From Grifola frondosa (Eukaryota > Basidiomycota > Agaricomycetes > Polyporales > Grifolaceae), in the NCBI GenBank assembly GCA_001683735.1, contig LUGG01000047.1:1-64000 (forward strand): a stretch of DNA of 64,000 nt, given 5' to 3'. Positions 1,943 through 53,158 of this stretch are shown here, piece after piece; the stretch's first letter is position 1, and the number at the start of each line of letters is the position of its first letter. The position numbers and the translations under genes were made by a program. The notes under the pieces are model-generated. The model did no database searches. It was not told where the DNA came from and saw only the letters and a program-made list of their open reading frames with translations.

Positions 1943-4900
1943 ATGCTTGTCATTCTTTTGTCTGTTCTTGCCTCCGCGAACCTGGCATATGCCTCGACTG
2001 TATCTGTAATGTCTCCTCTTAACGATCAACTCCCTCCTATTGCCCGTATAAACGCTCTTTTTACTTGGACTTTTTCAAGCCAAACTTTTGTCTCCTCCAC
2101 CAACGCTACCTTGGAATACTCAGCATCTGCCTTACCATCTTGGCTTTTCTTTGATTCATCGAGTCTTACTCTGCATGGATTGCCTTCTGCAGATGACGAA
2201 GGGGCACCTGGAATTACTATCACTGCTCGTGATCCAAAGTCTTCTGATTCTGCATCGTCTCATGTAACTCTCTGCGTGACGCCTTATCCAGCTCCATCCC
2301 TCAACATTCCAGTCACTCAGCAGTTCTCAGCCTCTAATCCATCATTGTCCTCGGTATTTCTGTTGGCCTCCAACTCGGCGCTGTCTACTTCTCATCCTGG
2401 TCTACGCATTCCCCCGAAATGGTCATTCAGCATTGGTTTCCAGTACAACACCTTCACTGCGGATGGAGATATCTACTATGCTGCATCCCAAGCCGATGGA
2501 TCACCTATCCCTGATTGGATGAGTTTCAATCCCAGAGCGATTACCTTCGACGGAGTCACTCCGTCGCAAAACTTGACTGGGTCACTGACAATATCTTTGA
2601 TGTTACATGCGGCTGATCAAGCAGGCTACTCCGCGGCATTCTTGCCTTTCGATATTGTCATCGCAGCTCATGAGCTGTCTCTGTCTACTGAGGAACTCCC
2701 AACCATCAATATCACTGCTGCAACTCCGTTCAATTTCAGCCTTAATTCTGCAGCAGACTTTTCCGGTGTTCTACTCGACGGTGAACCTGTGCGCTCGTCC
2801 GACATTGTCAGCTTGGACATGGATACCTCCCGGTTCGCTAGCTGGCTTAAATATGACCCTTTTAGCAAGACTCTGAGCGGACAGCCTCCTTCTGATCTGA
2901 ACGGCGGTGCGCACAACCCTCTTCTCCCTGTGACTTTGATTTCGTCGGTCAACCAGACCATCCATACGAACGTCTCTCTGGCTGTTGTACCGTCGTTTTT
3001 CTCCACAGCCACTCTGCAGCCTATTTTGATTACTCCTGGCCACGCCGTGCAATTCGATTTGGAGTCATATTTCTCGAACAGCAGCGGTCTTGGTAGTCAG
3101 AATACTGACGTCAACCTTACTGCTGCCTTCGATCCACCGGAATCAGGTAACTATCTGACCTTCCAACCAGGCTCTGCGCAGCTTGTGGGTACAGTTCCGG
3201 TTAACATCACTGCTTATGACCATATCACCATCACGTTCACCGCCTACTCGCGTATCACCCATTCGACTTCTCATACCATTCTCCCCATCTCATTGTCTAC
3301 CACCGACTATGCTCATCAACACTCGGCTTCTGGCAATCTCTCCGTATCCGCACGTGCGAAGTTGTTGCTGGCCCTCAAGATAGCCTTTGGTGTAGTTAGC
3401 GGAATTATTCTTCTGGTCATGTCCTTCGCCGCGTTCCGTCGCTACGCTCGAGTTCCTGATACTGCTGGTGGGGCGAAGAAGGAAGATGTGGGTGGACTGC
3501 AGAAGAAATGAAGTGGTACGGCATCGGCATCAAGGTTGGTGGCGCGGCATACGACGGCCCCAAGAGCGAGTACGGCTACGGGTCCTTGGAGAAAGCTGCA
3601 ACCTCAGAGAAGGACGAAACAGGCGGCCATGGGAACTTGGGTGTGGAATTGCGTCGTGTGCTCACGCGTACCCCCTCCAACCCCATGTCCCTACTCAGCC
3701 CTCGGAGCCCACAGAGCCCCGGCGTCATGCGCAAAGGCGACTTCATCGGCAAGATCAGGACGACCGCGCGTATCGTCAGCGATAAATACAGGGTCGTGAG
3801 TGACAAGTACAAGCGAGCGGTTGGTGGTTCCAGGAGGCCTGTAATCTCGAAGCCTATGCTCATCATGACTAGCGACAACCGCGCAAGCGCACTAGCAGGC
3901 AGGACCATAGATGGCTTACCGTTCACGGATAGTGCGGGCGGGCTAGATGTACGTCCGAGGCCACATTCCGAGGCCATACCGTTCGAAGACATGGATCTCA
4001 GCCAGTATGCTCCGAGTGGGATGACTAGCGTAGCTGGCTCGCCCTCGTCCTCCACCGGCCAACGCTCTATCCCCCGCCGTCGTGCAGACTTCGCTCCTCC
4101 TCGGACACCTGTTGTGATCACGACGCCTCCACAGGTACATCTAGACGAGCACCACACGCATACGCGGTCCGTAGAATCACTCGCATCGTCCCTTTCCAGC
4201 AACTCGTCCACACGTACGCACGAAAGAGAAGCCATTGTGCAGACCGCCACTCGTGCAACGAGCGTGCGGAGTGCTGCAAGCGCATTATCCTTTCAGTCAC
4301 GCACTAGCACAGGCGTGCATGCACCTGGGAGGCCGCGCCTCGTACCTTTCACGAGCGCAACCCGTGTACCGGTACCAAAGCTACCTACGTCGTTCTTCGG
4401 TGGGGACCCCGATGCGCCCGTAGGCGTTCCTGCGGCCGGCGCGGGAACGAAGCGCGTCGCTAGTCAGATAGCAAAGGTGTTTAGAAGCGCTGCTGGAGGT
4501 CAGGGCGTCATCACCCAGCGTGACAGCCCAGATGACTTGAGCACAGGAGTACAATATGTGCAGGCTTTGGGTGATAATGGACAGCACGCTAGCTCGAACG
4601 GTATGTGTTAATACCGCCGTTTATGGTGCCTATCACTTTCGCTCACTGCTATCTTAGATCATTCGTCGCCTCGCTCATTTTCGTCTTTAGAGTCATCGCA
4701 CCATGGACACCATGGCCGTAAGTCGAAGATATCAACCGTTCCGCGGATGCTAGCGCGCACAGGTGAACAGTTCAAATTCCGTGTGCCAATATCCTACGGC
4801 ATCGGCAAGTCTTCCGCACCTCCCCCGTGGAAGAAATCAAAGGCTCTTGAGGCGAGGCTTATATCAGGGAAGGCATTACCGAAATTCATTAAAGTCAACT

Positions 4901-9144: not shown

Positions 9145-10653
9145 TTCTACGTGGATCAATGTAGCTTGCGAAAATGTGGGCTGCAACTGGATCGGCAACA
9201 ATGTTGAATGTTACGAATGTTTCATGATTTCACGAGATACCTCACAGCCTTCTATCGTTGTAATATCCCTCGTATTTGTTAGTGCAACTGGTATAATTAA
9301 TCATAATTTCCATGAACCGCGGTAATGAGCGCACACCCACAACCATTCAACCACGACCAAGATCGGATGGACGAGCGCGCACAAGTTGAGTTCTGGCGTG
9401 CAATGTGCCGTTGGCCTATGCGCTACTTGCCACTCGCTCAGGAACAACTGTGAGGAGTGTATCGACAATCGACCTTGCGCTTAATAAAGCGAGGACTATC
9501 CGGAGTCATCGCGAGGATCCTAAAAATGCAAAAATACTGTGGTCATCTCCTTTTGGTTCTTGTGTATATGGTATTCACCTAGGCAAAATGACCGGTAGTT
9601 CCTCGATAAGAATGATATAGCGGTTGCAATATGATGGCAGACGGGAACAGAGCACCACATGAAAGCCATTCGAATGCTCGCCCTGGGACATTCCGTTCAG
9701 GTCATGGAAGGCCGCGCTTTGAAGCAGTAAAAACAGAGCGACGTCATAGCTCACCGTCATGAGCTTTTAAAGGAACATTAATATTGTCCCACCATGACCG
9801 GAGCACATTCCGCCATTATCCTGTCCGACTACAGGCACTTGCGGTGATCATTAATTAACTCGCACAGTGCTATCCGGAATTCGACCGAGGTACTACCTGG
9901 TCCACATGTTTGACACGCCGTGCGAAGACATAGCAGCGACATGGGCGGTCGGAAACGTCGGCGGCCGGAGAGAATGTCAGCTCGTAGACGAGTTGGAATA
10001 TACTTGGTTTCCAAACCAGAAAAGTTGATCCAAGATCCAAGACGCTCTTGTTGAAAGAGATGCACAAATTATGGCGACCAATCGTTGGCGAGCAACCGCT
10101 GTAATAGAGCCGTCATCAGCAAAATGCGCGCGCACAGTTCCACAGCCGCAAACCTGGATTTCGTGTTTTTTTAAATAGGAGGATTTTCAAGAAGCACGTC
10201 GTGCTCGAATACACACCTGACTCCAATGCGCAGTCCAAAGGCAACGCATGAGCGTTGAGTAACGGTCTTTCAAAATTAGCATTGGGTCAATTATATCCGT
10301 TCCGTGGCAGTTATTGTTCCCGTCTAATTGGGGCTGAGGTATGTCGATGCTCGTTTGACGTTCGTCTTAAGGAAATTCAAGGTGTCACAACATGGGCGTG
10401 CAGGTGGACGAAAGCGTATTGCAACAAAGCAGAACTTATACAACGACTGTCCAGCAAGGTGGAGGCGAACTGTTCAGCACAACGGTTATAAGGTAATGCA
10501 GAGAATTAGGAAGTTAGGGGGATATCTGGTCGCGCCTGAGTAGCTGGATATATCTCACACACCCGCTTCCCCGCGACTCGCAGGAAAACGTTCGTGCTCG
10601 CATCGACGCCACTGTCTCCATGATAACGCGTGTAGTGGTGCATGGAGGGAGAT
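9145..10653. other. Intergenic, no recognised gene
   Basis: 1.5 kb downstream of the orphan gene and downstream of the dynein light chain gene. Only short, unrelated frames are present on both strands. No RNA gene, repeat or transposon end was recognised. Confidence 0.5.
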
Positions 10654-37732: not shown

Positions 37733-38141
37733 ACCAAGAATTAAAGTGACAAAAAATAATGAGCATTGTCTCAGCGTGCAGTGTCATAATTGCAGTACAT
37801 GTCAATATATTGTACGTACTGTTGAAAGAGGTAAAATTATTGTATCTAATTCACCGAGGATTAAATGGAGACAAAATAATGACATTGTCTCAGCGTGCAG
37901 TGTCATAATTGCAGTACATGTCATATATTGTACGTACTGTTGAAAGAGGTAAAATTATTGTATCTAATTCACCGAGGATTAAATGGAGACAAAATAATGA
38001 CATTGTCTCAGCGTGCAGTGTCATAATTGCAGTACATGTCAATATATTGTACGTACTGTTGAAAGAGGTAAAATTATTGTATCTAATTCACCGAGGATTA
38101 AATGGAGACAAAATAATGACATTGTCTCAGTGTCATAATTG
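37733..38141. repeat. Tandem repeat, about 119-bp unit, 3.5 copies
   Basis: The marker GTGTCATAAT recurs at 37781, 37900 and 38018, giving periods of 119 and 118 bp; a fourth copy is cut short near 38141. The second and third units are almost identical, the first differs by several bases. The unit is AT-rich, with TGTACGTACTG and GTACATGTCA as near-palindromes. It marks the border between the gene-dense left part and the repeat-rich right part. Confidence 0.9.
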
Positions 38142-45648: not shown

Positions 45649-45790
45649 ATTTGTAGTATACTTACGTCGGATGCAATATCCGCCTCGCACAATGAGAAAT
45701 TGATAGAATTGTGTGAACTAAGTGTGAACTAAATGGATACACTGTCATCGATGCAAGGACAGCCGCTGTCTCCGCGACGGTCCCGGGGAG

Positions 45791-46320
45791 AAGGAACGAC
45801 CGCGTGAAGAGGGCGAGCGGGAACGCCGCCTGAGAGGTCGCGGCAAAGGCGAACGTTGCTGCCACGATCGCGAGATAGGCCGCATGCGCGACCGCGAGAT
45901 GGACCGCCTGCGCGACGGTCCCAGAGAGAAGGAACGACCGCATGAAGAGGGCGAGCGGGAACGCCGCCTGAGAGGTCGCGGCAAAGGCGAACGTTGCTGC
46001 CACGATCGCGAGATAGGCCGCATGCGCGACCGCGAGATGGACTGCCTGCGCGACGGTCCCAGAGAGAAGGAACGACCGCGTGAAGAGGGCGAGCGGGAAC
46101 GCCGCCTGAGAGGTCGCGGCAAAGGCGAACGTTGTCGCCACGATCGTGAGATAGGCTGCCTGCGCGACCGCGAGATGGACCGCCTGCGCGACGGTCCCGG
46201 AGAGAAGGAACGACCGCGTGAAGAGGGCGAACGGGAACGCTGCCTGAGAGGTCGCGGCGAAGGCGAACGTTGCCGCCACGATCGCGAGATAGGCCGCCTG
46301 CGCGACGGTCCCGGAGAGAA
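45791..46320. repeat. Tandem repeat, 138-bp unit, about 4 copies, coding an Arg/Ser tail
   Basis: The marker AAGGAACGAC recurs at 45791, 45929, 46067 and 46205, exactly 138 bp apart each time. 138 is a multiple of 3, so each unit adds 46 codons in frame. The unit is GC-rich; all three minus frames and a plus frame stay open across it. One minus frame gives an Arg/Ser-rich chain, another a hydrophobic Ala/Leu chain; the frame continuous with the upstream gene is the Arg/Ser one. Confidence 0.92.
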
Positions 46321-47627
46321 ATCGCGTGGACAGTGCAGTAAATGTCTCAGCGAAGAGGGAGACTGCTTCTCTGAATGCCGTGGTGGTGTCGAGTGTGGCT
46401 GCCGAGGATGCGACGCTGGAGGCAAGGAAATGGCGTTAGAAAACGCTCCAGGAGCAACTCGAAACGGCAAAAGCCACGGTAAAGGGCGTCGCACGCCATC
46501 TTCCTTGCGACTCTGCTGGGCCTCCTCGGCTGGAATTTCCCTCTTGGACTCTATCCCTTCCATGGCCTCTCCAACCGGAAGTGTTTTTGCCACATCAACC
46601 TCGCGAGCTGTAGCGTCAGTTCATTCACGCTCCACAGTTTCTTGAGCTACACGAGCCTCAGCCGCCTGACGCTCCGCAACTACAACCGCCCATGGCCTTG
46701 TCCAGTCAGCAAATTGGTACTGAGGCTCCACCTCCCAGCCCGAATCTTCGTCTTCCGAACTTGACCTCCTCGCGCCTTTTCTGCGCTGCCTTTGCTCCTT
46801 TCGACGGCGCCTCCGATTCGCTTTTGCAGGGAGATTCGGATGATGTTCTTTCTCATCAAACGGATCAATGCTGAACCTACTGTCCAGCTCCTGCAACTTG
46901 ACTTCTGAGCCAGATTGGAGAGGAGGCATAGAGTTGACAATAATCCAGCACGGTATTCCCAAGAAAACTAAAAATTTTGCCGTGGCGCTATCTGCGAAGT
47001 CCAGCCAACAACCCCTACACGACTGGAGTTGGAGAGCACGGGGAATCAAACCATTATTGAATGATTGGCATAGAAATCCGTGCCAGGCAAATGAACGATA
47101 ATCAAGGATGTACTGCTGAATGAGCGCGACCCTCTTTCGGTGCTTCTCCAGCGTTGAATCACATATTTCGAAGTCACTCAATGCATCGCGAATTTCCGAA
47201 GTATCACGAATGATGCTAGACGACGCTGAAAGCTCCGCCAAGCGCGCAAGTTCTACGGACGAACGATACATCCCTAATAAAGACTCCAAAAATAACGGTG
47301 AGGGACGACCACGACGATTCTGATAGTTGTGGGTGCGAAATGAGACGGTATCCTCCATTGTGACGAATGCGGAATCGATGTCCGTACCATCTTGCTCGTA
47401 CACGAATGGACGATGAGGCCTGGCAGGATCATATCGCTGCGGATGTATAGTCCAGTCGTGCCAAGCCCACCTTCCGTCCGCATATTGAAAAGGAGATTGA
47501 GAAGATGGAGGGGGTGGCGTTGGGATGTAGGACGCGTTCGGAGATATCGCAAAGCGCTTGTCGTCCAATTGACAATACGACTTCACACCTAAATGACCAC
47601 GGAAATCCGCGAAGGCAACACATGATG

Positions 47628-47635
47628 GATCTTCC
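47628..47635. other. Target site duplication, left copy (GATCTTCC)
   Basis: GATCTTCC directly before the left end CACTTCAG of the palindrome. The same 8 bases follow the right end at 53095-53102. Confidence 0.9.
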
Positions 47636-47996
47636 CACTTCAGGGCACCGTTTATCCCTAGCTCTTAGCCTCGACAGTTTCCATTGAAAGTCAAGGCTAA
47701 TAGGCTCTCAGAGACTGGTCCTCCCATGGGATCTGGGTAAGGCCCATGGGCCCTAGTGGGAGGTCCCATTTTGTAGGAGGTCCTTTGATGGGAGGTACTG
47801 ACATATTTTATAGGTACAGGTTCCAAAGTTCTAGGTCTTCCCAATAACATATGGACCTCCCATGTTTTGGTCACTTGTCACGGGGTGTTAGGGGTCAATA
47901 TGGACATCCTGTAGCCAGAATAAATATGAATTTCTTTATCGATCAGTTACTATTTTATAACTAATTACTAATGCTTAGGACCTCCTAACAGCATTT

Positions 47997-48712
47997 GTGG
48001 GACATCCTGTGCTAATATTGGGACATCCTGTACCAATATTGGGCCATCCTGGACTAATGTTGGGACATCCTCTACCAATGTTGGGACATCCTGTATTGAT
48101 ATCAGGACCTCCTATATCAATATCAGGACATCCTATATCAATATTGGGACATCCTCTACCAATGTTGGGACCTCCTGGACTAATGTTGGGACATCCTGTA
48201 TTAACATCAGGACCTCCTGTATTACTTTTGGGATCTCCTGTATAATGATTGGGACCTCCTATAAATATCAGGACATCCTATATCAATGTTGGGATCTCCT
48301 GTATTAATATCAGGACCTCCTGCATTAATATTGGGACATCCTGTAGCAATGTTGGGACCTCCTGTACTAATGTTGGGACATCCTGTATTAATATCAGGAC
48401 ATCCTATATCAATATTGGGACATCCTCTACCAATGTTGGAACATCCTGTATTAGTATCAGGACCTCCTGTATTACTTTTGGGATCTCCTGTATAATGATT
48501 GGGACCTTCTATAAATATCAGGACATCCTATATCAATATCAGGACCTCCTGCATTAATATTGGGACCTCCTGATTTACTATTAGGACCTCCTATATTAAT
48601 ATTGGAACACTCTATATTACTATTGGGACCTCCTATAAATATCAGGACCTCCTGTATTAATATTGGGACCTCCTGCATTTAATATCAGGACCTCCGGTAT
48701 TAATATTGGGTC
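47997..48712. repeat. 21-bp satellite array, about 34 units (left arm)
   Basis: Units vary around GGGACATCCTGTATTAATATT, 21 bp, with common forms GGACCTCCTGTA.. and GGACATCCTATATCAATATCA. The period holds with few exceptions for about 715 bp. Mirrored at about 52019-52734. As 21 bp equals two helical turns, every unit presents the same face. Confidence 0.9.
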
Positions 48713-48799
48713 ATTTCACATTTATTAATGGGAAATTTTCAGTACTCAGGTGATCTTGATAGCATTTATCGGAAAGTACATTTCTATTAACAGAACCTT

Positions 48800-49060
48800 T
48801 GGATGATTGTAATACAATTATGGCACTATTATAATATAATAATAGGACATTATAATATAATATTAAATCACTATAGTATAATATGGGGTCATTGTATTAT
48901 AATATTGGGATATTGTAAAATAATACAGAATCATTGTAATACAATACTAGCACATTGTAATATAATATTGGAGCATTGTAATACAATATAACATCATTGT
49001 AATAATATTAAGGCTTTGTAATATAATTTGAAATGGTTGTAATATAAATATAATATAATA
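48800..49060. repeat. AT-rich 21-bp satellite array (left arm)
   Basis: About 11-12 units around GGGTCATTGTAATATAATATT, also 21 bp, with a sequence different from the first array but a similar start (GGxCAT). Mirrored at about 51671-51931. Confidence 0.85.
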
Positions 49061-50011
49061 TAAATTTGTCATATGTCATGAAAACATATCACTTTTGATA
49101 TATTTTGGCTGTAGCCACTATGTGTTTTTTTCTTCATTTCTCCCTCAACTCTCAGGCTTTCCTGTACAGCTACTATAATGTTTGCTAGTATACTAGCAGC
49201 CAGCATTACAATGTGAACCCAACACACCAGGTCCTGCTATTGCTATAACTTAGGACTAATAATTTTTTTAAATATTCAAATATCTCCATATATAGTATTG
49301 ATGCTGATATGATATTTGCACACCCATATTCGTATGTTGCGGGGCTTTCAGCAGATATAGCATTTGTCATATGTTGCGAAAACATACCGCATTTGATATG
49401 TTTTGGTTTCAGCCACCATATGTTTTTCTCTTTATTTCTCCCTCAATTCTGCACAGTTTTTCTTCATCCTGGGTTCGTCTGAAAGCGCTCATTGAGGAGA
49501 ATCAGAATATGTGCATATTTTGGTGTGATATTAAAATAAAAACATACCATTTTGGGCAGCCACTCCAGAGTGTTCTGCTGAATTGCTCCCTCAAATCTTC
49601 ACCAAATCTCTTGGTTCCTTTATCCCCTTTGTCGCCTAAATGTCCAATTTAATGTTCTGAATTTAGTTTGGCAGATTATAGGGCAGAAAACATACCAATT
49701 CTGGCAGCTGTAGGCTCAGCCACATCAGAATTCCTTCCCCTCCTCCTTCCTCAATTCTTCATGGAATCTTTCAGTTTAATTTTCCCTTTGGTCCTATTTA
49801 TGTGTTCTTTGATTCTATGCATAATACAGGACCCCAAACAATAATGGAATTTCGTCTCCCCCTGCTTTGCTGGCAGGTATCCCTCCCAATTTGGGAAATG
49901 AATAGTGGACAGATTCTGGAATGCAGGGCAAGGTCGGAAAGGCAGCAGTTATGTCGATAAAATGATGTTTTCCCTGAAATAATCCGTCTAGTATCCATCT
50001 CACAACACACA

Positions 50012-50719
50012 AACCAAGCTTGGGTGGCAGTTGCCACACTGATCACCCAATATCTTCCCATCCAGTTGCTTGTTTTTTATATTCTTTTGTGCACATATTC
50101 TGTATTATATGTTCCTCATAGAATAGTCCTTTCTTATGTCATTACTCCCAAAATTCACAGTGCTGCACCCCAAATACTTACATATGATCCCCCCTGCTAC
50201 TGAACTTTGTGGCAGCTTTAAAACCATAATAATAAGGGGAAATATAGTATACATCTGTATCTACAATACACAGTAAATATCAAGAGAATCCATGAGGAAG
50301 TGGGGAGATATGGGGAGGATACCTAATTGTGGCTGAATTCTTAATACTGCTGCACTACTGCTGTACCAAGCTCAAGTCACCTGTGCTTGAATCAGGGGCA
50401 AATACACTGATCCCTTAATTACTCCCTCATTTCCTCATCATCTTGCATAATGTTAGGCTTGTTTTAAAGCTATATTAGACCCCTATTGGGTCATTGAATC
50501 TGATCTTGGAATAAATTCCATATAGTAGTACATTTGTGTGATCTATTGAGGAAGCTGATAAGGATTCCACCAACTGAGTTCCACTCTGATAAGCATGATT
50601 TTTGGCTAATGTATGAATCCCAATATATATAATACACTGCAGAAGTCCGCTTGAAATTTGGGACAAATTCCATCTCGGAGGCCAGGAGGAATTGTTTCAG
50701 CCACCCCTGAATATTGTTA
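50012..50719. other. Central spacer of the palindrome
   Basis: 708 bp present once only. AT-rich with short frames (60-63 codons, 50475-50673 minus) that resemble nothing known. No transposase motif, tRNA or promoter recognised. It would form the loop if the arms pair. Confidence 0.8.
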
Positions 50720-53094
50720 TGTGTGTTGTGAGATGGATACTAGACGGATTATTTCAGGGAAAACATCATTTTATCGACATAACTGCTGCCTTTCCGACCT
50801 TGCCCTGCATTCCAGAATCTGTCCACTATTCATTTCCCAAATTGGGAGGGATACCTGCCAGCAAAGCAGGGGGAGACGAAATTCCATTATTGTTTGGGGT
50901 CCTGTATTATGCATAGAATCAAAGAACACATAAATAGGACCAAAGGGAAAATTAAACTGAAAGATTCCATGAAGAATTGAGGAAGGAGGAGGGGAAGGAA
51001 TTCTGATGTGGCTGAGCCTACAGCTGCCAGAATTGGTATGTTTTCTGCCCTATAATCTGCCAAACTAAATTCAGAACATTAAATTGGACATTTAGGCGAC
51101 AAAGGGGATAAAGGAACCAAGAGATTTGGTGAAGATTTGAGGGAGCAATTCAGCAGAACACTCTGGAGTGGCTGCCCAAAATGGTATGTTTTTATTTTAA
51201 TATCACACCAAAATATGCACATATTCTGATTCTCCTCAATGAGCGCTTTCAGACGAACCCAGGATGAAGAAAAACTGTGCAGAATTGAGGGAGAAATAAA
51301 GAGAAAAACATATGGTGGCTGAAACCAAAACATATCAAATGCGGTATGTTTTCGCAACATATGACAAATGCTATATCTGCTGAAAGCCCCGCAACATACG
51401 AATATGGGTGTGCAAATATCATATCAGCATCAATACTATATATGGAGATATTTGAATATTTAAAAAAATTATTAGTCCTAAGTTATAGCAATAGCAGGAC
51501 CTGGTGTGTTGGGTTCACATTGTAATGCTGGCTGCTAGTATACTAGCAAACATTATAGTAGCTGTACAGGAAAGCCTGAGAGTTGAGGGAGAAATGAAGA
51601 AAAAAACACATAGTGGCTACAGCCAAAATATATCAAAAGTGATATGTTTTCATGACATATGACAAATTTATATTATATTATATTTATATTACAACCATTT
51701 CAAATTATATTACAAAGCCTTAATATTATTACAATGATGTTATATTGTATTACAATGCTCCAATATTATATTACAATGTGCTAGTATTGTATTACAATGA
51801 TTCTGTATTATTTTACAATATCCCAATATTATAATACAATGACCCCATATTATACTATAGTGATTTAATATTATATTATAATGTCCTATTATTATATTAT
51901 AATAGTGCCATAATTGTATTACAATCATCCAAAGGTTCTGTTAATAGAAATGTACTTTCCGATAAATGCTATCAAGATCACCTGAGTACTGAAAATTTCC
52001 CATTAATAAATGTGAAATGACCCAATATTAATACCGGAGGTCCTGATATTAAATGCAGGAGGTCCCAATATTAATACAGGAGGTCCTGATATTTATAGGA
52101 GGTCCCAATAGTAATATAGAGTGTTCCAATATTAATATAGGAGGTCCTAATAGTAAATCAGGAGGTCCCAATATTAATGCAGGAGGTCCTGATATTGATA
52201 TAGGATGTCCTGATATTTATAGAAGGTCCCAATCATTATACAGGAGATCCCAAAAGTAATACAGGAGGTCCTGATACTAATACAGGATGTTCCAACATTG
52301 GTAGAGGATGTCCCAATATTGATATAGGATGTCCTGATATTAATACAGGATGTCCCAACATTAGTACAGGAGGTCCCAACATTGCTACAGGATGTCCCAA
52401 TATTAATGCAGGAGGTCCTGATATTAATACAGGAGATCCCAACATTGATATAGGATGTCCTGATATTTATAGGAGGTCCCAATCATTATACAGGAGATCC
52501 CAAAAGTAATACAGGAGGTCCTGATGTTAATACAGGATGTCCCAACATTAGTCCAGGAGGTCCCAACATTGGTAGAGGATGTCCCAATATTGATATAGGA
52601 TGTCCTGATATTGATATAGGAGGTCCTGATATCAATACAGGATGTCCCAACATTGGTAGAGGATGTCCCAACATTAGTCCAGGATGGCCCAATATTGGTA
52701 CAGGATGTCCCAATATTAGCACAGGATGTCCCACAAATGCTGTTAGGAGGTCCTAAGCATTAGTAATTAGTTATAAAATAGTAACTGATCGATAAAGAAA
52801 TTCATATTTATTCTGGCTACAGGATGTCCATATTGACCCCTAACACCCCGTGACAAGTGACCAAAACATGGGAGGTCCATATGTTATTGGAAGACCTAGA
52901 ACTTTGGAACCTGTACCTATAAAATATGTCAGTACCTCCCATCAAAGGACCTCCTACAAAATGGGACCTCCCACTAGGGCCCATGGGCCTTACCCAGATC
53001 CCATGGGAGGACCAGTCTCTGAGAGCCTATTAGCCTTGACTTTCAATGGAAACTGTCGAGGCTAAGAGCTAGGGATAAACGGTGCCCTGAAGTG
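50720..53094 (-). repeat. Right arm of the palindrome
   Basis: Reverse complement of 47636-50011, one base shorter. All frames found in the left arm recur here mirrored, for example 48249-48557 plus with 52174-52482 minus and 49371-49652 plus with 51079-51360 minus. Confidence 0.92.
52019..52734. repeat. 21-bp satellite array, mirrored copy (right arm)
   Basis: Inverse of the array at 47997-48712, unit for unit as far as compared. Confidence 0.9.
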
Positions 53095-53158
53095 GATCTT
53101 CCTCGGGAAGAACGGGAAGACGGGCTTGTGGAGCAAAAGTAATATTTGTCGACATCAT
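53095..53158 (-). pseudogene. 5' end of the split orphan gene, cut off by the palindrome
   Basis: On the minus strand MMSTNITFAPQARLPVLP begins at 53158 after an in-frame TGA and runs into the target duplication, where the sequence passes into the element. The remainder of the frame continues at 47627 on the other side. The first 8 bases (53095-53102) are the right target copy. Confidence 0.75.

Follow-up and report, generated by a model that had tools for sequence, protein, structure and literature searches.

The stretch of DNA analysed here (the window, 64,000 nucleotides of a Grifola frondosa contig) holds a large palindrome between positions 47636 and 53094. The left arm (47636-50011, 2376 bp) was aligned globally to the reverse complement of the right arm (50720-53094, 2375 bp), and the 2376 columns contain 0 mismatches and one 1-bp gap; BLAST extended the alignment slightly beyond the arms, to 2381 columns without a mismatch and with 2 gap openings. 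An inverted repeat of 2.4 kb as perfect as this is beyond chance. The arms enclose a single-copy centre of 708 bp (50012-50719). The element starts with CACTTCAGGGCACC at both ends, its termini (CACTTC...GAAGTG) are of the CA..TG type, and GATCTTCC flanks it on the left and right as an exact 8-bp duplication. A preliminary description, made from the sequence alone, had given these arm lengths with one indel, the centre and the duplication, all of which we reproduced, and the satellites it had placed inside the arms are present as 21-bp and AT-rich units mirrored in both arms. The features of the locus are as follows.

46621..47635, minus strand: predicted host reading frame, downstream part, interrupted by the insertion
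47628..47635, no strand: left 8-bp target-site duplication GATCTTCC, present once only in two empty sites on contigs C3 and C2
47636..50011, plus strand: left arm, 2376 bp, from the alignment to the right arm
47636..47742, plus strand: terminal 107 bp, beginning CACTTCAGGGCACC, the most widely conserved part of the end by sequence matches
47998..48710, plus strand: outer satellite, a 21-bp unit repeated about 34 times, from a repeat scan
48801..49044, plus strand: inner AT-rich satellite, with a weak likeness to the subterminal satellite of KDZ (Kyakuja-Dileera-Zisupton) elements
49355..50011, plus strand: arm part of a core shared with other loci, from core matches
50012..50719, no strand: centre, 708 bp, single-copy, whose homologue in a sister family is found in both orientations
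50720..53094, minus strand: right arm, 2375 bp, from the alignment to the left arm
50720..51376, minus strand: core arm, mirror copy
51704..51932, minus strand: inner satellite, mirror copy
52021..52733, minus strand: 21-bp satellite, mirror copy
52988..53094, minus strand: terminal 107 bp of the right end
53095..53102, no strand: right 8-bp target-site duplication GATCTTCC

No transposase was recognised in the palindrome, in agreement with what had been stated before. The longest stop-to-stop frame lying wholly within it has 114 amino acids, and a Pfam search of ten inner frames (left arm, centre and right-arm edge) gave nothing over the cut-off, the best match being RIMC1 with 14.5 bits against 25. 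Rfam returned no RNA family at threshold for the palindrome.

Copies and empty sites

The genome searched was the same assembly (G000, 39.06 Mb in 64 contigs), in which the contig of the window is C40; L numbers denote extracted loci. The first 295 bp of the element match 11 places. Full copies at C16:677402-682838 and C43:7416-12871 share 97% identity with the window copy along their length and carry 8-bp duplications of their own, GATGAAAA and GTGTCCGA, and the copies on C40, C16 and C43 thus have three different perfect duplications. A fourth full copy of this family (family 1), C7:1137301-1142542, is strongly diverged, with 68-70% identity overall and many gaps; an 8-bp duplication is found in three of the four copies with both ends, the fourth being that on C7. 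The rest of the 11 matches are an old end on C8 and two solo ends, one on C16 and the other on C2; the terminal 107 bp is 88-89% identical in the C7 copy and the two solo ends. The further copies that the preliminary description proposed to look for hence exist.

When the flanks of the window element are joined at one GATCTTCC, they have full-length matches of 99% at C3:877209-877709 and C2:1125620-1126116, and both sites read uninterrupted through the insertion point. The host segment is accordingly present in three genomic copies, one of which has the element. The C16 insertion also lies in a duplicated segment, of which the C2 copy has no element, one duplication and an A-run one A shorter; this segment holds Helitron remains (PIF1 with 47.9 bits, over the cut-off, and Helitron_like_N with 28.8, just under its 28.9). 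Empty sites, which had been proposed as a check, were thus found within the same assembly, two for the window insertion and one for that on C16. In the joined, empty-site form a frame of 356 codons, beginning at about 53158, runs across the window site, and the element interrupts this predicted gene at a point near its start. The portion of the frame that is left in the window (46621-47635) gave no Pfam match.

Because there are copies with their own 8-bp duplications as well as empty sites, the palindrome is a mobile element, and the same duplications and empty sites show that the window copy was inserted. Elsewhere in the window are a 138-bp tandem repeat at 45773-46306 (3.9 copies), in an open frame that codes charged RDREMDRL-like repeats, and a 119-bp tandem repeat at 37753-38130 (3.2 copies, 98%).

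The shared core and a sister family with unlike ends

A search with the inner element (49050-51750) gave 130 matches, spread over at least 40 loci with that of the window counted in; the number of loci is a minimum, as the scoring covered 40 of 159 candidates. The match has the exact limits 49355-51376 in 18 of the 40 scored loci, and we named this segment the core; matches at the other loci are longer or partial. One large sister family (family 2) has unlike ends, A (CACTACTGGCTACC) and B (CAGCTGTGGTCACC); from about 20 bp inward the two are alike. The end pattern was found at 61 places. In 26 pairs an A end faces a B end, in one pair on C13 two B ends face each other, and 7 ends are single. 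A core match is enclosed in 14 of the 26 A/B pairs. Among ten palindromic copies with both ends, seven have a 7-bp duplication, one has a 6-bp duplication, one has none and one is unreadable. The B/B pair (C13:6753-11017) is the sole one with the same type of end on both sides. L054 (C10:1583128-1585101), a short palindrome of 2.25 kb with little beyond the core, has ends CCACCTGATCG and GTAGA on both flanks, and perhaps represents a third end type with a 5-bp duplication. L057 on C57 and L058 on C6 share 4.87 kb at 99.8% identity, either as a duplication or as a leftover second haplotype.

Two A/B pairs enclose matches to a KDZ transposase (C7:86242-100381 and C7:115027-129245). These are 14-kb elements with 7-bp duplications, CGCTGTC and CTTATAC, and the first of them scores 115 bits with the Pfam KDZ model, against a cut-off of 26.6. 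In the parts of the KDZ elements that were read, the subterminal satellite and the outer arms of the palindromes have 75-80% identity. The two elements are inverted to each other, with 0 mismatches and 11 gap openings over the 7.1 kb compared; a reading of the pair as one giant palindrome was rejected, as each is a separate insertion and has its own duplication. With 128 matching stretches, KDZ is abundant in the assembly. Tet_JBP has 22 genome matches, none of them on C7; by our own count, 17 of the 22 have a KDZ match no more than about 3 kb away.

Kyakuja elements of Agaricomycotina are described in the passages cited (Kojima 2025, PMC12730594) with 7-bp duplications, CA..TG ends and no inverted repeat at the tips, as seen in the sister family and the two KDZ elements. 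Since 7-bp duplications and the exact ends are common to the sister family and the KDZ-bearing elements, the family seems, by its ends and duplication length, to fit non-autonomous Kyakuja. The passages cited do not describe Kyakuja as palindromes, and the window family differs from it by 8-bp duplications and perfectly inverted ends (PMC12730594).

Orientation of the centre and likeness of the arms

The unlike ends A and B make it possible to tell which way round the interior of a sister-family copy lies; in the window family flips are unreadable, its two ends being alike. Among 16 sister-family copies the interior is in plus orientation in 6 and in minus in 10, and on a tree of the centres 5 is the fewest orientation changes, with both orientations present in each of three supported clades. 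At the edge between arm and centre, 11 copies have unlike arms in column 664, which fits the orientation in all 11, and column 667 fits it in 9 of 10; neither column is independent of the centre itself. The neighbouring loci L042 and L045 on C14 have separate 7-bp duplications. With the interior of one inverted between its ends, their alignment of 4476 columns is free of mismatches and has 20 gap openings, while direct alignment covers the arms only, with 3 and 4 mismatches. Judged from these patterns, crossing-over between the arms would be the simplest cause of the inversion, and arm-to-arm recombination that flips the centre can also homogenise the arms. We found no report of a foldback centre inverting between its ends among the open-access papers listed in the searches, a negative of little weight.

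The arms of one copy tend to be alike. Pairwise counts gave 0 mismatches between the arms of the window, C43 and C7 copies and 9 in the C16 copy (column counts of mirrored changes are affected by misaligned C16 indels). Between copies, the three close ones differ by 16-38 mismatches per arm, and by 337-360 from the C7 copy. The inner arm (657 bp) was further compared in 25 copies, 23 of which have both arms, C57_1 and C6_1899 each having one that is too short. A copy's own arms are closer to each other than its left arm is to any other copy in 16 of the 23, with a tie in 2; in a tree of the arms, read by eye, the two arms of one copy group together in 14 of the 23. C7:1137 has 0/640 differences within the copy and 24.5% to its nearest relative, C10:1583 has 0/636 and 9.7%, and C7:1432 has 1/653 and 6.3%. 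The clearest exception is C10:833, whose arms are 20% apart.

In 19 of the 21 copies counted, which exclude three rearranged ones (L051, L057 and L058), the boundary between arm and centre is no more than 5 bp away from the homologous base; in the other 2 it is displaced by 17 bp. As the boundary has kept its place in copies whose inner arms are up to about 25% apart, the palindrome seems to be ancestral, and a re-matching of its arms must have taken place since.

Steady gene conversion in place, as in sex-chromosome palindromes, could keep the arms alike independently of transposition, and the C7 copy of family 1 is in line with this, having no target duplication and still 0 mismatches between its arms. 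Such conversion should erase differences between own arms, hence those kept despite intact duplications count against it: the 9 mismatches of the C16 copy, and 38 columns that differ between own arms in 15 family-2 copies, 32 of them in one copy only. We therefore regard steady conversion as possible, though unlikely. It seems as if insertions start with like arms and then drift; the mostly private nature of the differences points to matching during transposition rather than to steady conversion.

Candidate enzymes and known foldback systems

The ends and satellites of the window family were compared with those of the KDZ-bearing elements. The first 14 bases of the window end match end A at 10 positions and end B at 9, and the corresponding figures for the end of the C7 copy are 9/14 and 8/14. 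The inner satellite matches the satellite of the KDZ family with 52.5 and 54.0 bits, whereas 100 Markov controls reached no more than 49.7 and 41.1 bits, respectively. It exceeded the controls in three comparisons, in one of them narrowly (52.5 against 49.7), and two of the three share a single alignment, with one or the other of its sides randomised. No such likeness to the sister-family satellite is shown by the 21-bp outer satellite (25.4 bits, control maximum 31.1). Duplications of 8 bp are described for Zisupton and one Dileera element (PMC12730594) and for KDZ1 of Cryptococcus, which has inverted ends of 241 bp (PMC12810828), at least in the passages cited. On account of the core held in common with the KDZ-ended sister family, the 8-bp duplications, the CA..TG ends, the likeness to end A and the inner-satellite match, we infer that the window family is most likely moved by a KDZ transposase of the 8-bp type. 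KDZ is thus the best supported mover, if unproven.

We consider it probable that the palindrome as a whole is a non-autonomous foldback transposon with such a KDZ-type mover, whose arms recombine together inside the element. An enzyme encoded elsewhere would act on both CACTTCAGGGCACC ends, and the element would be excised and then inserted by an 8-bp staggered cut; most likely this enzyme would be a transposase of the KDZ superfamily, of the 8-bp type. From the sequence patterns, the arms would recombine within the element, conversion producing their likeness and crossing-over an inverted middle. The most likely moment would be gap repair at excision, or the excised molecule, when one arm might be copied from the other. 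The preliminary description had likewise proposed a non-autonomous foldback with its mover elsewhere, perhaps of a family with 8-bp duplications, and this gains support from the copies, the empty sites and the KDZ-bearing relatives of the sister family. It had also proposed to look for an autonomous relative with the same ends. The exact ends of the sister family stand on KDZ-bearing elements; no coding copy was found with the ends of the window element.

Several observations weigh against this reading. DNA and pattern searches of the assembly gave no KDZ or other coding element with the window element's own ends. The match to end A is modest, with a binomial probability of 0.0003 that rises to 0.003 once the shared CA is taken into account, and duplication length alone is a weak guide, since KDZ2 and KDZ3 of Cryptococcus have duplications of 4-8 bp in the passages cited (PMC12810828). 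The hAT dimerisation domain has 27 matches in the genome. The C7 copy of family 1 has no matching duplication, and with its perfect arms this speaks against matching at transposition. Along with their 9 mismatches, the arms of the C16 copy have 23 gap openings between them; in 5 of 23 copies, in addition to the 2 ties, own arms are no closer than to another copy; and the tree of the centres is weakly resolved, with 4 of its 13 inner branches well supported.

The same foldback could instead be moved by a hAT or another transposase that makes 8-bp duplications, in which case recombination would have made the core common to it and the KDZ-ended sister family. In addition to the 27 hAT-domain places, this reading is favoured by the 8-bp duplications, which are usual for hAT according to the passages cited (PMC12730594), and by the occurrence of the core under more than one kind of end, as in L054 with its CCACCTGATCG ends and GTAGA flanks. 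Against it stand the likeness of the window end to KDZ end A (10/14) and the inner satellite, which exceeded the 100 Markov controls against the KDZ-family satellite, narrowly in one of three comparisons, and we find a hAT-type mover rather unlikely. That each palindrome is a recent, independent inverted duplication with arms alike merely by youth is very improbable; template switching is a known process by which such duplications could form, but the boundary near the same homologous base in 19 of 21 copies, with inner arms up to about 25% apart, does not agree with it. Long palindromes are hard to assemble, but an assembly artefact or a long-read foldback chimera is so strongly contradicted by the separate copies with other flanks, their distinct duplications and the matching empty sites that we dismiss it.

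Other candidates and loci were noted during these searches. Inverted pairs of hAT-domain matches lie around core-bearing loci at C6:1898781/1905619, C57:1146/7980 and C1:2409152/2420581. The P-type RNase H domain (PF21787) has 0 matches in the assembly, in a search without a positive control. Matches to the end pattern were rejected as a coding partner, being only known copies, old or solo ends and chance-like matches, and the backward control of one search equalled it; near-matches on C2, C16, C18 and C14 were also rejected, with no likeness to the element beyond the motif. A weak end match at C8 1016642 (3 mismatches) lies 20 kb from a KDZ match. A 386-bp repeat by the C16/C2 solo end was tried as the subterminal part of a partner and rejected, since its ends, TAGTGTTGC...GCAACACTA, mark a separate small element; it has three copies (L016:1019-1386, 4405-4790 and 9318-9703), one of which cuts an old window-type end. 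At L017:2885-5535 on C8, beside an old window-type end, there are 269-bp inverted repeats (96.7%) 2.65 kb apart, and a 280-amino-acid frame between them gave no Pfam match over the cut-off.

By structure the window element belongs with the foldbacks, having long, internally repetitive inverted arms, a short centre and a target duplication. FB of Drosophila has satellite-bearing long arms, and the duplications of Mutator and FB elements are of about 9 bp (8-11), so that the 8 bp of the window element are at the edge of this range. The comparison with FB and Mutator drawn in the preliminary description stands as a structural likeness only, and KDZ is the better lead for the mover.

Statements on the following systems are limited to the passages cited. 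Galileo, of the P superfamily in Drosophila, is similar in its long repetitive arms and short centre, was first known from non-coding copies, and has duplications of 7 bp, in some cases 8 bp; it differs by a P-type transposase and a GTATTAC-like target (PMC2775673, PMC4168063). Arms of Galileo copies 1 and 2 are more than 99% alike within a copy and about 7% apart between copies (PMC2775673). Tm1 of root-knot nematodes (Mutator/foldback) has composite long arms with unlike terminal motifs, as in the sister family with its ends A and B, and differs by 9-bp duplications and a Phantom/Mutator-like transposase (PMC3169594). Tetris of Drosophila has satellite-bearing long arms and known copies without a transposase, and differs by duplications of 8-10 bp, the suggestion of Mutator by its authors, and no autonomous partner being known (PMC4079207). 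The 8-bp duplications are shared by the window family with Zisupton, Dileera and KDZ1 of Cryptococcus (PMC12730594, PMC12810828), KDZ1 differing as a coding element of about 11 kb (PMC12810828). No KDZ foldback or palindromic non-coding KDZ element was found among the open-access papers listed in the searches, a negative that carries little weight. The Tetris paper cites the idea that foldbacks may have originated from separate lineages (PMC4079207).

Further, we speculate that the 2-kb core might be a self-keeping module, passed between transposon families with other ends and with 8-, 7- and perhaps 5-bp duplications, which would persist by an arm-copying, hairpin-like intermediate at each transposition. 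We hold this to be tentative and rather improbable; if true, the core would be a cargo-like palindrome that recruits new transposon ends.

Foldbacks are often without a known mover, while the sister family described here is tied end-for-end to KDZ-bearing elements, a link that would add KDZ to the superfamilies giving rise to foldbacks. The unlike ends of this family record inversions of the interior, and arm-to-arm recombination in a dispersed palindrome becomes readable per insertion; through it, homogenisation in place and during transposition can be directly tested against each other. Kyakuja elements with TET/JBP genes are widespread in mushroom-forming fungi according to the passages cited (PMC12730594), and given this wide occurrence the system should be findable in many genomes.

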